Below are positions 2,498 through 53,746 of a DNA stretch of 64,000 bases, in pieces. Under the pieces are notes generated by a model that was not told the origin of the DNA, ran no database searches, and saw nothing but the letters and a program-made list of their open reading frames with translations. Position 1 is the stretch's first letter. Every line of letters begins with the position of its first letter. Source of the DNA: Bacillota bacterium. Lineage in GTDB: Bacteria; Bacillota_A; Clostridia; Lachnospirales; Lachnospiraceae. The stretch covers positions 186,001 through 250,000 of the forward strand of contig JAEYMU010000012.1 of assembly GCA_023407175.1 (NCBI GenBank), in the 5' to 3' direction. A program made the position numbers and the translations under genes.

Positions 2498-3853
2498 CTA
2501 CGCATAGGATTGCGTTCTGGAGGAAGTCACATTTCTCCGTAATGAGCTTGAATATATTTCTTCCAGCAGTCTAAGTCCCCCATCATATCCCACATAGCTC
2601 CGGTTTAAAATCAAGCTGTCATTGATCGGAAGACTGATATATGCATGCGTATTCCCTGTTTCTTCTGCCAAAAACTTTTCCCAGGAGCTGCCGAGGATTA
2701 AGGTTCTCCGGGATTGCTTTATTTTGCTGCGGATATCGGCCTCGATTTTACCTCCGTCCGCTTCGAATGTATAGGATCCGGCAAATTCATTCCCCATATT
2801 AAGAAGCACTTTCTCGATTTCTGACATCCGCTCTTCTCCCGGCTCATCTGTAATGTAGATACCTTTGGGGAGAAATCCAAGTTCATTTACAAGATAATTA
2901 CTGATGCCAACGGCATAAATGCTATCCGCTACCGTAAATAGATCAAAGGGCAGATTACCGCGATAATCTGATATGAAGTCGGCCATTCCCGTAAAATAAG
3001 TGTAATAGCGTTCCTTCTCGCGCAAAATCACCTGTTCTGTAACGCTTTCAGGCAGTCCCGCAAAGCGGCCTGCTTCTCGCAGGAAGCTGCCGGTTTCCTT
3101 CGCGCCTATTGGGAATACAGGATAATACATATACGGCGTCCCATATTTTTTTTCAAGCAATTTAACTGTTTCCAGCCCAACCCAGGGGGACAGCAAAATA
3201 TTAAACTGAGCATTTGGTATATCATCCCATTCTTTTATTCCCAGAGAGCTGCAGCCATATAGAATATTAACCTTAAGTCCTATTTTTTCAAGCAGTTCTT
3301 TTATTTCCTCAAGATCCCCTCTCCAGAAAGGATTTTGATAAGGGACAACAGAAAAAACATTTACAAGCCCTTTTTCTATCTTAGGCTCTGCATCCCCCAG
3401 GTATTGCTCAATAATCTCATTAACCACAAGCTCATGTCCTAAATAGTTATTTCCCTTAAACCCTGCCGTTTCAACTCCAATCACAGGCTTTCCTTCCAGC
3501 ATGAACTTTTTTGCCACATTAATCGGGTCATCTCCGATAATACCTGCGGTACAGCCTGTTAAAATCACATACAAATCACCGTCAAGGACCTTTAATGCCC
3601 CCTCAACTACATCTTTAAGCTTACCCTCGCCTCCAAAAACCACTTCCTGCTCTCCTGAGTTCGTGCAGGAAACCATCGCTCCTCCTGCATAGCCCTCTCC
3701 CTGGAAGCCTGAACCGTAGGATGCATAGCTGAATGCTTTAGAGGAGCAACCCGGCCCTGCGTGAATGATAGGAATGCCCCTGGGTATCGCAAGTACTGTT
3801 TGCTGTGCGGCCAGTGCACATGAAAATCTGGGTTGTTCTATGATTGTACTCAT
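2498..3853 (-). CDS. Nitrogenase-like K (beta) subunit, K1
   Basis: A 451-aa nitrogenase component 1 type oxidoreductase. The three expected P-cluster cysteines of a K subunit are present: Cys12 (PRFSCAL), Cys36 (AGPGCSS) and Cys101 (LTGCTAGIIGDD). It resembles NifK but lacks the long NifK N-terminal extension, like Mar/Nfl-type subunits. Its start overlaps the D1 stop (ATGA), so D1 and K1 are translationally coupled. Its closest relative in the window is K4 (shared IEQPR..CAL.AQQ..LAIPR block). Last gene of operon A. Substrate unknown; the sulfur-gene context suggests a reduced organosulfur compound. Confidence 0.85.
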   Translation of the reverse strand: MSTIIEQPRFSCALAAQQTVLAIPRGIPIIHAGPGCSSKAFSYASYGSGFQGEGYAGGAMVSCTNSGEQEVVFGGEGKLKDVVEGALKVLDGDLYVILTGCTAGIIGDDPINVAKKFMLEGKPVIGVETAGFKGNNYLGHELVVNEIIEQYLGDAEPKIEKGLVNVFSVVPYQNPFWRGDLEEIKELLEKIGLKVNILYGCSSLGIKEWDDIPNAQFNILLSPWVGLETVKLLEKKYGTPYMYYPVFPIGAKETGSFLREAGRFAGLPESVTEQVILREKERYYTYFTGMADFISDYRGNLPFDLFTVADSIYAVGISNYLVNELGFLPKGIYITDEPGEERMSEIEKVLLNMGNEFAGSYTFEADGGKIEADIRSKIKQSRRTLILGSSWEKFLAEETGNTHAYISLPINDSLILNRSYVGYDGGLRLLEEIYSSSLRRNVTSSRTQSYA

Positions 3854-5316
3854 TCTTCATTTTCTCCTTCAAAACAAAACGGATTTTTCTGTTCCATCCA
3901 CCAGCTGCTGTATGGGAATTTAACATTATCTGCTATATTTTCAAGCAATTTTTTTGTAAGAATTGCTTCACAAAATCTTCGTCCGAGCTTTATTACCCCG
4001 TCATATCCCAGGCTATAATTGACATCTCCTTCAAAAAGAGTGGGAATTCCAAGCTTTGTTCCAAGAACCGTCAGGTTTATATGTCTTACGATCAACAAGT
4101 CAGGTTTGATATTTTTCAGCAGCTTAATCACCTGATATGGCTGTTTGTTACATATAGAGTAATTTTTTATATCTCCGCTGTTCTTTAATACCGCGTCAAG
4201 TGTTGACATCCGGTTCCCGTCCAGATGCTGATCGTGATGGAGCGTTGTGATACCGATCAGTTCAAGTCCAAGATCCTTTGCAACATTTGCCATGTTATGC
4301 GCAAAAGCATCTCCCGCATAAATATATACCCTTTTTCCTTTCAGCTTTGCGCGGATTTCCTCCAACTCATGCCTGATGCGCTCATGCTCCCCGCGGATTA
4401 CCTGTTTGGCTAATGCCTCTCTTCCTGTAATTCTCGCAATTTCTCTTAACCATTGATCCGTCCAGTCAATGCCAAAGGGTGCGGATGCTTTCACCTCCGG
4501 AACTCCATATTGCTCCTCCAGCACTGCAGTGACATAGGTAGAAAGCGTTTCACATACGTGGGTGGAGCAGGCTGCCTCAGACATGGTAGCAAGCTGCTCT
4601 ACCGTTGCATAGGCAAAGAGGCAATTTGCTCTTAACGAAAGTTTTCCAAGCAGCGGTATAAAGGTATCCGAACCTGCAAAATTAAATACATTAACAAGGT
4701 CTTCCTGTTTTTTTCTTGGCGGCCGCACAAGCCTTCTCAAAACGCTGTGAAAAACCGCATCAAATCCGGAGGACCAGATCCGGGATTTAAAGCCTTCACA
4801 ATATACAGGAAGGATAGGATATCCTAATTCCTCCTGCATTTCATCAGCGACACTTTCCAAATCCTCTCCGATAATTCCTGATGCACAGGAGCCCTGAATA
4901 AAGATAAGAGCCGGTTTAAATCTTGTATCTGCCTCCATAATTGCCTTCCTTAATTTTTCTTCGCCGCCGTATACAGTATCTTCTTCCCTGAGATTTGTAC
5001 TTATTATCTGCACTTTATGCGCCTTAAGATTTCTAGCCTTTGCCCCTGCACGCCCAATGATATTATATACGGATGCATTGGTCCCGCAGCCAATAGGTGC
5101 ATGGCTTACGATAGCCGCCCCTTGTACCAGCACTGTCATTGCTTCGGCACATTCCTCCGCACAATCTCCGCATTGGCCATAAGTACGCAATTTACAGCTC
5201 ATCTGGCGTAATTTGGATTTTTCATTTAAATCACACGCGGTTCCACTATAGGAAAGAGTTGAATGCAAACGCCGTTCCCTGACCTCAACCTCCATATGAT
5301 CCAGATTAATACTCAA
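3850..5316 (-). CDS. Nitrogenase-like D (alpha) subunit, D1
   Basis: A 488-aa catalytic subunit partner of K1. P-cluster ligand equivalents are Cys52 (in QCGDC), Cys77 (HAPIGCG) and Cys144 (GSCASGIIGED). Cys255 in CETLSTYV aligns by spacing to YGVP with the NifD FeMo-cofactor ligand Cys275. The NifD His442 position before the GYDG motif is not histidine, as in non-N2-fixing nitrogenase-like enzymes. This predicts a NifB-type all-iron cluster bound mainly by cysteine. The start is TTG at 5316, seven bases after AGGAGG. It is preceded by H1, which probably delivers its electrons. Confidence 0.86.
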   Translation of the reverse strand: MSINLDHMEVEVRERRLHSTLSYSGTACDLNEKSKLRQMSCKLRTYGQCGDCAEECAEAMTVLVQGAAIVSHAPIGCGTNASVYNIIGRAGAKARNLKAHKVQIISTNLREEDTVYGGEEKLRKAIMEADTRFKPALIFIQGSCASGIIGEDLESVADEMQEELGYPILPVYCEGFKSRIWSSGFDAVFHSVLRRLVRPPRKKQEDLVNVFNFAGSDTFIPLLGKLSLRANCLFAYATVEQLATMSEAACSTHVCETLSTYVTAVLEEQYGVPEVKASAPFGIDWTDQWLREIARITGREALAKQVIRGEHERIRHELEEIRAKLKGKRVYIYAGDAFAHNMANVAKDLGLELIGITTLHHDQHLDGNRMSTLDAVLKNSGDIKNYSICNKQPYQVIKLLKNIKPDLLIVRHINLTVLGTKLGIPTLFEGDVNYSLGYDGVIKLGRRFCEAILTKKLLENIADNVKFPYSSWWMEQKNPFCFEGENEE

Positions 5317-5377
5317 GCCTACCCCTCCTAATTATTCTTTTCATTTCTGCCTCCTTCGGAAGCTGATATCTGACAGG

Positions 5378-52849: not shown

Positions 52850-52870
52850 CAAATCACCTCATTCCCGCTG

Positions 52871-53746
52871 TCAGATACCTGCACCTGCATTGCTGGTGTC
52901 TTCCGCCTCAATCTTTAATATCTTATCTCCCCAGACTCTGGCCCAGTCTCTAAGCTCAGTCACACTTAGGGGATTGGGCAGGGTCGTTTCTGTATCATTG
53001 ATAATATATTTTGCCAGCTCCCGATAAACCTGTGCCTGCTCTGTATCAGGGTTTGCCTCAATCACCGTCCTCCCCTGAAGCTCACTCTGGGCAACCACTG
53101 AGGACCTGGGTACATACCCGATTACCTTGGCATTGGTCTCGGTGGCAAAATCGTTGATTAATGGCTTCGCATAGGGAGCCAGAACACTGTTGGCTATGAT
53201 GCCGCCCAGCTGGGCGCCTCCGGTAGGGGCATATTTGCTGATGGCCTTGAATAAATTATTGGCAGCGTACACCGCCATAAAATCCGAAGAGGTTACCACA
53301 TAAACCTTATCCGTGATTCCTTCTCTGATCGGTACCGCAAAGCCTCCACAGACAACATCCCCCAGTACATCATAGAGTACGATATCCGGCTTGAAGGTTT
53401 CAAATAAATTAAGCTCCTGAAGCAGAGTAATCGCCGCATTGATGCCTCGTCCGGCACATCCGACACCGGGCACGGGCCCCCCTGCCTCAATGCACAGCAC
53501 TCCCTTAAAGCCTACCACCGAGATATCCTCAATCTTTACATCCGCCCCGTCGCGCAGACTGTCCAGCACAGTCGGAAGATAATTGCCCCCCCGTAAGGTA
53601 TTCGTGGAATCACTTTTGGGATCACAACCGATCTGAATAACCCGGTAACCGGCCTCAGCCAGTGCTGCACTGATATTTGAGGTAGTTGTCGATTTCCCAA
53701 TACCACCTTTTCCGTAAATTGCTATATGCTTAACTTCCTTACTCAT
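52871..53746 (-). CDS. Nitrogenase-reductase-like Fe protein, H3
   Basis: A 291-aa NifH-like ATPase with P-loop YGKGGIGKS, Cys97 (GVGCAGRG) and Cys133 (DVLGDVVCGGFAVP). It differs clearly from H1/H2 (for example DSTNTLRGG for their DSTRLLLGG and a longer C-terminus), matching the separate nature of D5K5. Start set at the ATG with GGAGG four bases upstream. It sits directly before D5 in operon C. Confidence 0.92.
   Translation of the reverse strand: MSKEVKHIAIYGKGGIGKSTTTSNISAALAEAGYRVIQIGCDPKSDSTNTLRGGNYLPTVLDSLRDGADVKIEDISVVGFKGVLCIEAGGPVPGVGCAGRGINAAITLLQELNLFETFKPDIVLYDVLGDVVCGGFAVPIREGITDKVYVVTSSDFMAVYAANNLFKAISKYAPTGGAQLGGIIANSVLAPYAKPLINDFATETNAKVIGYVPRSSVVAQSELQGRTVIEANPDTEQAQVYRELAKYIINDTETTLPNPLSVTELRDWARVWGDKILKIEAEDTSNAGAGI

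Follow-up and report, generated by a model that had tools for sequence, protein, structure and literature searches.

Five nitrogenase-like gene pairs of three clades in a predicted organosulfur-scavenging locus of a Lachnospiraceae bacterium

What does a bacterium do with five nitrogenase-like enzymes encoded almost side by side? The question is raised by a 64,000-nucleotide stretch of a Lachnospiraceae genome (GenBank assembly GCA_023407175.1, contig JAEYMU010000012.1, positions 186,001 to 250,000; here called the window), in which open reading frames and family scans bear out most of what the initial annotation had listed: five pairs of D and K genes (pairs A to E), three Fe proteins, two metY, two cysK and a sulfite-reductase-like gene, all in place. 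The three importers it named are of the MetQIN, polar-amino-acid and sulfonate type (binding proteins and one permease were scanned, ATPases and remaining permeases named by sequence), and its metK, also named by sequence, is part of the locus but lies slightly beyond the range 2498..53746 given for it. To these we add a NifB, a NifX/FeMo-co protein, four variant radical S-adenosylmethionine (SAM) genes, a decarboxylase-like gene, a glutamine-synthetase-like ligase, a ThiS/ThiF/JAB sulfur relay, siroheme genes and a CymR-like regulator. Judged from its sequence, this is a real and coherent organosulfur-scavenging locus with predicted substrates. In the reading that we consider probable, the five pairs, of three clades, would differ in the organosulfur compounds whose C-S bonds they cleave, and the released methanethiol, sulfide and sulfite would feed the synthesis of methionine and cysteine. 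This reading rests on the genes, the three clades, their ligand patterns and their recurring neighbours, from which we infer substrates and chemistry.

The D proteins fall into three clades. In a careful tree of 48 D proteins chosen out of 137, a methylthio-alkane reductase (MAR) type with D_A and D_D (bootstraps 100/100), a separate B/C type with D_B and D_C (100/98), an isethionate reductase (Isr) type with D_E (100/100) and Nif (100/100; rows named by residues and cluster context, not by family scan) each form one clade, and a quick tree of all 137 rows agrees on the placement of the window's five proteins. D_A and D_D, 50% identical, share a clade with MarD of Rhodospirillum rubrum but form their own subclade apart from it; D_B and D_C, 42% identical, belong to different subclades. 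MarD is the best match in PDB for all five (Table 1). Nitrogenase identity is rejected, as no D protein lies in the Nif clade and no score exceeds the nitrogenase (NifDK/VnfDK/AnfDK) cut-offs. Branching within chlorophyll or F430 reductases, which the initial annotation had set against its own reading, finds no sign in the family scores of the ten D and K proteins (at most 113 bits with the BchB model, cut-off 490, and 61 with the Cfb model, cut-off 268; Bch and Cfb proteins are absent from the tree). Four other loci (L068, L201, L215, L087) make up a small clade that includes an Endomicrobiaceae sequence, with Cys or Pro at 195 and Phe199; it is sister to MAR with weak support and may be kin to group IV-A.

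The predicted active sites separate along the same lines. In the numbering of R. rubrum MarD (the typed reference reproduces the residues of PMC12552129), positions 195/199/270/428/429 read W-F-C-R-H in D_A and D_D, M-Y-C-G-H in D_B, M-Y-C-I-H in D_C and G-Y-N-G-N in D_E, and Cys66, Cys91 and Cys158 are all kept in A to D. In the excerpted text of PMC12552129, Cys270 and His429 are cluster ligands and Arg428-His429 is a possible MAR hallmark. Set beside MarBHDK of that source, A and D share the MarD clade, the P-cluster cysteines, Cys270/His429, Trp195, Phe199 and Arg428-His429; also alike are a NifB-like gene in the locus and a MetY next to A, while the window differs in the separate subclade and Ile194 of A and D, in the tie of D to a polar-amino-acid importer and in having B, C and E outside. 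D_B and D_C keep the P-cluster and cofactor ligand positions (Cys66/91/158/270 and His429), lie outside the MarD clade and lack Trp195, Phe199 and Arg428.

Pair E follows another pattern. IsrD of Rhodobacter capsulatus, as described in the excerpts of PMC11423573, retains one P-cluster cysteine and neither cofactor ligand, with Cys12, 37 and 99 in IsrK. In the alignment D_E retains Cys91 alone of the P-cluster set, that is, only the Cys88 equivalent of the Isr pattern, with the equivalents of Cys275 and His442 absent, and K_E keeps three P-cluster-type cysteines (12, 37 and 97), which align with their counterparts in the remaining K proteins. Next to pair E are a sulfonate importer and radical-SAM genes, the latter candidate counterparts of isrB, in an arrangement resembling that in the excerpts on IsrBHDK; different are the three radical-SAM paralogues and metK of the E operon, the third K cysteine, and the places of IsrD Cys62 and Cys154, with Asn and Ala in our alignment and Arg and Pro/Ser in PMC11423573. 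The Isr clade comprises D_E and seven relatives, including a protein named as Thiodictyon's, with R. capsulatus IsrD not among the tree rows. Genes similar to the three variant radical-SAM genes beside pair E occur in 4/7 of these kin, and sulfonate ATPase/permease-like genes in 6/8 Isr operons, window included.

Do the classes keep different company in other genomes? Genes were called in loci from other genomes and same-strand neighbours joined across gaps of up to 150 bp; representatives were taken at 80% identity, with the window and mixed operons left out. cysK stands in the operon of 20/39 B/C-type, 3/34 MAR and 0/7 Isr representatives (Fisher p 1e-4, B/C against MAR), and metY in that of 1/39, 6/34 and 0/7, respectively (p 0.045, MAR against B/C). 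Variant radical-SAM genes (4/7; p 2e-5) and metK (3/7; p 4e-4) accompany only Isr representatives, with none among 39 B/C and 34 MAR. For nifB (11/39 B/C, 9/34 MAR, 0/7 Isr) the direction is the expected one without significance (p 0.18). Because each of the two types compared, B/C and MAR, is a single clade, the difference in partners amounts to essentially one evolutionary contrast and these p-values overstate independence. Per operon, by a looser family match and with the window entered under Isr and mixed operons alone, cysK is found in 41/75 B/C-only, 8/51 MAR-only and 0/8 Isr operons and metY in 3/75, 10/51 and 0/8. By phylum, with mixed operons included, cysK accompanies B/C representatives in 11/18 Bacillota, 6/8 Spirochaetota and 5/9 without a phylum name, and in none of Thermodesulfobacteriota (0/4), Planctomycetota (0/2), Fibrobacterota (0/1) and Synergistota (0/1). 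The gene order metQ, cysK, glutamine-synthetase-like gene, pair B is repeated in locus L001, without the decarboxylase. An amino-acid importer stands beside pair D and likewise in 2/5 other members of its subclade (L095, L190), and not beside pair A, L046 or L092; this hints at an amino-acid-like substrate for pair D.

The following mechanism could connect these parts. An Fe protein with ATP would feed electrons to D/K and, in pairs A to D, through the P-cluster to an [Fe8S9C]-type cluster that the only NifB of the locus would supply. Pairs A and D would act as methylthio-alkane reductases releasing methanethiol, which MetY1 could convert to methionine, and B and C as a different reductase giving sulfide (or a thiol) to the CysK of the same operon. 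Pair E would reduce sulfonates in the manner of isethionate reductase, working without such a cofactor and presumably with the variant radical-SAM proteins and SAM from MetK instead; its sulfite could pass to a siroheme sulfite reductase, then to a ThiS-type sulfur carrier and finally to MetY2. A common upstream motif may place the genes under joint control by sulfur supply.

What would be the substrate of operon 1? The enzyme encoded between K_B and H_A matches L-methionine decarboxylase (PDB 7cif) with 442 bits over 521 residues, the next kinds being serine decarboxylase (125 bits) and histidine decarboxylase (88 bits). In the motif GYQATQ a Gln to Ala change distinguishes 7cig from 7cif; this Gln, which we take to have a role in methionine decarboxylase, is kept in the window (GYQANQ), while serine decarboxylase has GYPYNL there. 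The longest frame overlaps K_B by 14 bp; in the database gene model the start is 42 residues further in, at 8016, which leaves 112 bp between it and K_B. With MetQIN, cysK1 and metY1 around it, the pathway of operon 1 probably starts from methionine, decarboxylated to 3-methylthiopropylamine. The window gene differs from the known decarboxylase in adjoining nitrogenase-like genes. At 1e-80 the decarboxylase was found in 2/391 genomes of the class sample, both without D, K or other genes of the window's kinds within 20 kb, and at 1e-60 in 1/25 further-searched genomes, again G001. Since relatives in the two other genomes examined have no such neighbours, a general linkage between decarboxylase and nitrogenase-like genes is rejected and the association is at most a local recruitment; one further probable linked case is indirect, suggested by relatives of D_B (84%) and of the decarboxylase (79%). 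A more specific proposal, which we put forward only tentatively, is that B and C form a third, so far unreported carbide-cluster class of C-S reductase giving sulfide for their own CysK; in operon 1, together with a methionine decarboxylase and a MAR, it might lead from methionine through 3-methylthiopropylamine, methanethiol and sulfide to cysteine by a nitrogenase-driven route, with a small hydrocarbon such as methane as by-product and with no transsulfuration.

Regulation offers a further thread. An AT-rich 16-mer, ACATATAAAACATATA (CATATNNNNCATAT-like), is matched at 13 or more of its 16 positions in 7/13 upstream regions of the window (operon 1, nifB, metK, metY1, metY2, a major facilitator superfamily (MFS) gene and the fourth radical-SAM gene) and was not found upstream of nifX, hemA, JAB/ThiF, the sulfite reductase and two others. 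As the motif was derived from these same regions, the window counts are circular, and the tests are the shuffles and the other loci. With the search repeated on 24 shuffled sets, at most five regions held such a match. The exact CATATNNNNCATAT occurs four times in the window, always intergenic and on the minus strand, upstream of metY1, nifB, the MFS gene and the fourth radical-SAM gene. Among 28 exact copies listed in other loci, some being one place counted in two overlapping loci, the 17 inside genes look like chance and 11 are intergenic. Of the latter, five (at four distinct sites, L004 and L100 being the same place) precede nifB at a distance of 310 to 370 bp. Two more lie between cysK and an Rrf2 gene that shares 60% identity with that of the window; a weak metY match (31%) and a K gene each follow one copy, and the remaining two are without neighbours of these kinds on their strand. 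CymR is a sulfur regulator, and a CymR-like sulfur regulon behind the shared motif would be the simplest reading. A tRNA-Cys gene (57451-57523) lies inside the sulfur-gene region.

Several observations weigh against the three-class scavenging locus that we favour. His194 of MarD, near the S2B site, is Ile in A and D; since the hallmark in the excerpted PMC12552129 is Arg428 with His429 only, we read Ile194 as a difference of the pocket and not as lost membership. The third cysteine of K_E is at 97, against 99 in the excerpted description of IsrK, and the comparison set is without R. capsulatus IsrD and IsrB themselves. cysK is absent from the operon in 19/39 B/C-type representatives and in all 8 that belong to named phyla outside Bacillota and Spirochaetota; metY adjoins A and not D, and accompanies only the 6/34 MAR representatives given above. 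CysK could accept a thiol other than sulfide. Operon calls from longest frames are crude, and detectable partners are limited to the kinds present in the window; moreover, B/C loci were found with a B/C query, most MAR loci come from one family, and contig ends cut operons. Apart from the tRNA-Cys, no SAM riboswitch or other Rfam element was found at the operons, at the gathering score or up to E = 2.

How do other explanations fare? The initial annotation saw a multi-pair C-S system in which different pairs handle different compounds. This is partly supported, by the separation from nitrogenase, the sulfur-gene setting and classes that differ in predicted active sites and partners; an expanded MAR system finds no support, as only A and D have the hallmark. 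That all five pairs are methylthio-alkane reductases differing in the accepted thioether is distinctly unlikely: among solved structures MarD matches each D protein best and the hallmark is present in A and D, but B, C and E stand outside the MAR clade (bootstrap 100) without Trp195/Phe199 and Arg428, their kin have other partners and the ligand pattern of E already speaks against it, so that one uniform MAR system is rejected by the tree. It is unlikely, though less so, that B and C also act on thioethers or sulfonates from NMT1/Ssu-type importers, with CysK making an S-substituted cysteine or serving general synthesis. Ssu-type ATPase genes are indeed found in 26/75 operons with B/C-type pairs only, and pair C shares its operon with the polar-amino-acid importer; yet cysK is enriched relative to MAR operons, and both CysK proteins of the window score above the CysK cut-off.

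Could B and C instead be NifEN-like scaffolds, providing cluster maturation for pairs A and D of their operons? Operons that combine a MAR with a B/C pair occur twice in the window and four times elsewhere, and we count on the same side that 0/10 D and K proteins pass a NifE or NifN cut-off. However, B and C retain both cofactor ligand positions, and 75 operons have a B/C-type but no MAR pair (MAR pairs elsewhere in those genomes being possible), which makes such a role very unlikely. We give least credence, and very little, to B and C as divergent N2-fixing enzymes. Their P-cluster and cofactor ligands are kept, and N2 fixation by group IV proteins has been proposed for Endomicrobium and Heliophilum (group IV-A pairs) in the excerpted PMC9147875; but the trees place them outside the Nif clade and apart from L068, the Endomicrobiaceae sequence, they have Met and Tyr at the places given in excerpts for nitrogenase Gln191 and His195, NifEN and homocitrate synthase were not recognised among the annotated window genes, and they are linked to cysK.

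Is the array itself new? The initial statement that known methylthio-alkane reductase loci carry one set does not hold. According to the excerpts of PMC9147875, Heliophilum fasciatum has NflDK1-5, four pairs closing one contig and the fifth opening another, Heliomicrobium gestii has five NflDK pairs, and the roles of NflDK2-4 are given as unknown. By that description, Heliophilum resembles the window in having five nitrogenase-like pairs in one genome, one MAR-like, and no NifEN. In Pelosinus propionicus (L011, G005; contig C78), 14 component-1 domains form seven adjacent pairs from 50,972 to 88,741 (38 kb), and Sporomusa KB1 (G007) has at least 18 such domains over 84 kb. These arrays mean that the number of pairs is not new, and its uniqueness in one locus is rejected. 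A match over cut-off is present in 58/200 sampled genomes of the family of G001. Single frames of ~880-990 residues with component-1 domains (G002, G004, G005, G007), some in nif-type clusters, are possible fusions of two subunits. The excerpts of PMC13067680 describe a termite-gut spirochete whose group-IV nifK and nifD share an operon with a cysteine synthase; there it is one organism, without class, active site or wider count. Among the papers listed by open-access literature searches, none was seen to name a cysteine-synthase-linked class or to join methionine decarboxylase to nitrogenase-like genes. As far as these searches go, what appears new is that such arrays sort into three classes, each with partners of its own, together with the decarboxylase and a clade linked to cysteine synthase whose ligand positions are intact.

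All genes of the finding are on the minus strand (Table 1), in three likely operons called by gap size. The D and K proteins of pairs A and B, the four scanned with Pfam PF00148, match it with E-values of 1e-58 to 1e-79, far beyond chance, and NCBIfam models of nitrogenase component 1 pick up every D and K protein of the five pairs, each below cut-off. Operon 1 (16549 to 2498) runs from an amidotransferase-domain protein through MetN, MetI, MetQ, cysK1, the glutamine-synthetase-like gene, D_B, K_B, the decarboxylase, H_A and D_A to K_A; 622 bp beyond it come metY1 and the Rrf2 regulator. Operon 2 (30639 to 18617), preceded by the NifB-like gene at 200 bp, has the order NifX-like, importer ATPase, D_D, K_D, permease, binding protein, permease, cysK2, K_C, D_C, H_C and radical SAM; the last has a counterpart in L037, next to a relative of the C type. 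A 501-residue protein (16818-18323) in the space separating operons 1 and 2 has no Pfam match at 0.001, and its start resembles a helix-turn-helix. Operon 3 (56614 to 45176) contains metK, the sulfonate permease and ATPase, H_E, D_E, K_E, the SsuA-like protein and three variant radical-SAM genes. It is adjoined by the sulfite-use block of metY2, sulfite-reductase-C-like, TusA-like, thioredoxin-like, ThiS-like, ThiF, JAB and siroheme genes. The ThiS-like carrier (within 41625-42483) has its GG motif not at the extreme end; with ThiF, JAB, TusA-like, thioredoxin-like and sulfite-reductase-like proteins and metY2 it resembles a carrier-protein (thiocarboxylate) route to homocysteine, for which Wolinella reportedly provides a parallel. 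A nucleoside-phosphorylase-superfamily gene lies beside the fourth variant radical-SAM gene (58747-60806), with a similar gene in the Isr operon of L186. Further on, 62867-63499 has a low-complexity start and a weak, below-cut-off match to the Ntox37 toxin domain at its C-terminus.

Table 1. Features of the window, with the evidence for each assignment (scores in bits)
Feature	Position	Strand	Evidence
Rrf2-family, CymR-like regulator	128..562	-	Best specific model CymR, 126 (cut-off 195)
metY1, downstream of pair A	586..1875	-	NF006096 homocysteine synthase, over cut-off
Pair A, D/K	2498-5316	-
K_A, MAR type	2498..3853	-	PF00148; 57% identical to K_D
D_A, MAR type	3850..5316	-	MarD (9fmg_A) 440; best other nitrogenase-family chain 129
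Fe protein H_A	5378..6256	-	TIGR01287 over cut-off; 90% identical to H_C
Methionine-decarboxylase-like pyridoxal-phosphate enzyme	6277..8142 (longest frame)	-	PDB 7cif
Pair B, D/K	8129-11045	-
K_B, Tyr199 clade	8129..9472	-	PF00148; best PDB match MarK 263
D_B, B/C type	9462..11045	-	PF00148, alignment, tree; MarD 206, best other chain 126
Glutamine-synthetase-like ligase	11079..12392	-	Below cut-offs of glutamine synthetase and gamma-glutamylputrescine synthetase models
cysK1, cysteine synthase A	12402..13346	-	TIGR01139 461, over cut-off
MetQ, MetI, MetN-type importer	13368..15637	-	MetQ and permease by family-level scan; ATPase (14894-15637) by sequence
Glutamine-amidotransferase-domain protein, head of operon 1	15704..16549	-	Domain scan
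Radical-SAM protein, TIGR04100 type, end of operon 2	18617..19276	-	250 (cut-off 262)
Fe protein H_C	19304..20158	-	TIGR01287 over cut-off
Pair C, D/K	20193-23047	-
D_C, B/C type	20193..21695	-	Model scan, alignment, tree; MarD 195, best other chain 96
K_C	21707..23047	-	Component-1 model match; 45% identical to K_B
cysK2	23071..24021	-	TIGR01139 438, over cut-off
Polar-amino-acid importer: permease, binding protein, permease	24074..26517	-	Permeases by sequence; binding protein nearest to the cystine substrate-binding-protein model, 57 (cut-off 312)
Pair D, D/K	26468-29332	-
K_D, MAR type	26468..27844	-	Component-1 model match
D_D, MAR type	27863..29332	-	MarD 453; best other chain 125
ATPase of polar-amino-acid importer	29437..30198	-	By sequence; 42% identical to metN
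NifX/FeMo-co-domain protein	30250..30639	-	PF02579 over cut-off
NifB-like radical SAM (predicted cofactor maker)	30840..31733	-	TIGR01290 258 (cut-off 344); motifs that we take to be NifB-type
Upstream region of nifB, CATATNNNNCATAT at 31889	31734..32031	-	Motif search
Heme/siroheme genes: hemL, hemB, cobA-hemD, hemC, cysG N-part, hemA	33510..40169	-	Domains scanned; names deduced
JAB protease, ThiF/MoeB, ThiS-like carrier, thioredoxin-like, TusA-like genes	40400..42483	-	JAB and ThiF scanned; three small genes by sequence
Sulfite-reductase-C-like protein	42470..43336	-	TIGR02912 162 (cut-off 324)
metY2	43424..44659	-	TIGR01326 435 (cut-off 495)
Three variant radical-SAM paralogues	45176..49047	-	First scanned: NF045502 439 (cut-off 125); 63-70% mutual identity
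SsuA-like sulfonate-binding protein	49054..50157	-	SsuA model 97 (cut-off 164)
Pair E, D/K	50160-52852	-
K_E	50160..51434	-	Component-1 model match
D_E, Isr type	51434..52852	-	Model scan, alignment, tree; MarD 123, best other chain 81
Fe protein H_E	52871..53761	-	TIGR01287 380 (cut-off 394); 51% identical to H_A
Sulfonate-type ATP-binding-cassette ATPase and permease	53770..55395	-	By sequence
metK, head of operon 3	55433..56614	-	By sequence, without family scan
Fourth variant radical-SAM gene	59592..60806	-	Exact CATATNNNNCATAT copy at 60945 upstream

What would such a locus mean? The literature, as far as the excerpted sources go, assigns two nitrogenase-like C-S reductases, MAR and Isr, and both kinds are found here in one 52-kb locus together with a third clade, in which the predicted metal-cluster ligands are the same while the predicted active-site wall and sulfur acceptor differ. 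With perhaps one NifB and two near-identical Fe proteins in common, four pairs with different pockets would offer a natural test of how the pocket affects the reactivity of [Fe8S9C]. If the third class does release sulfide, this would be an unrecognised reductive desulfurisation in anaerobes of several phyla, termite-gut spirochetes probably included, with methane or other hydrocarbons possibly as by-products.

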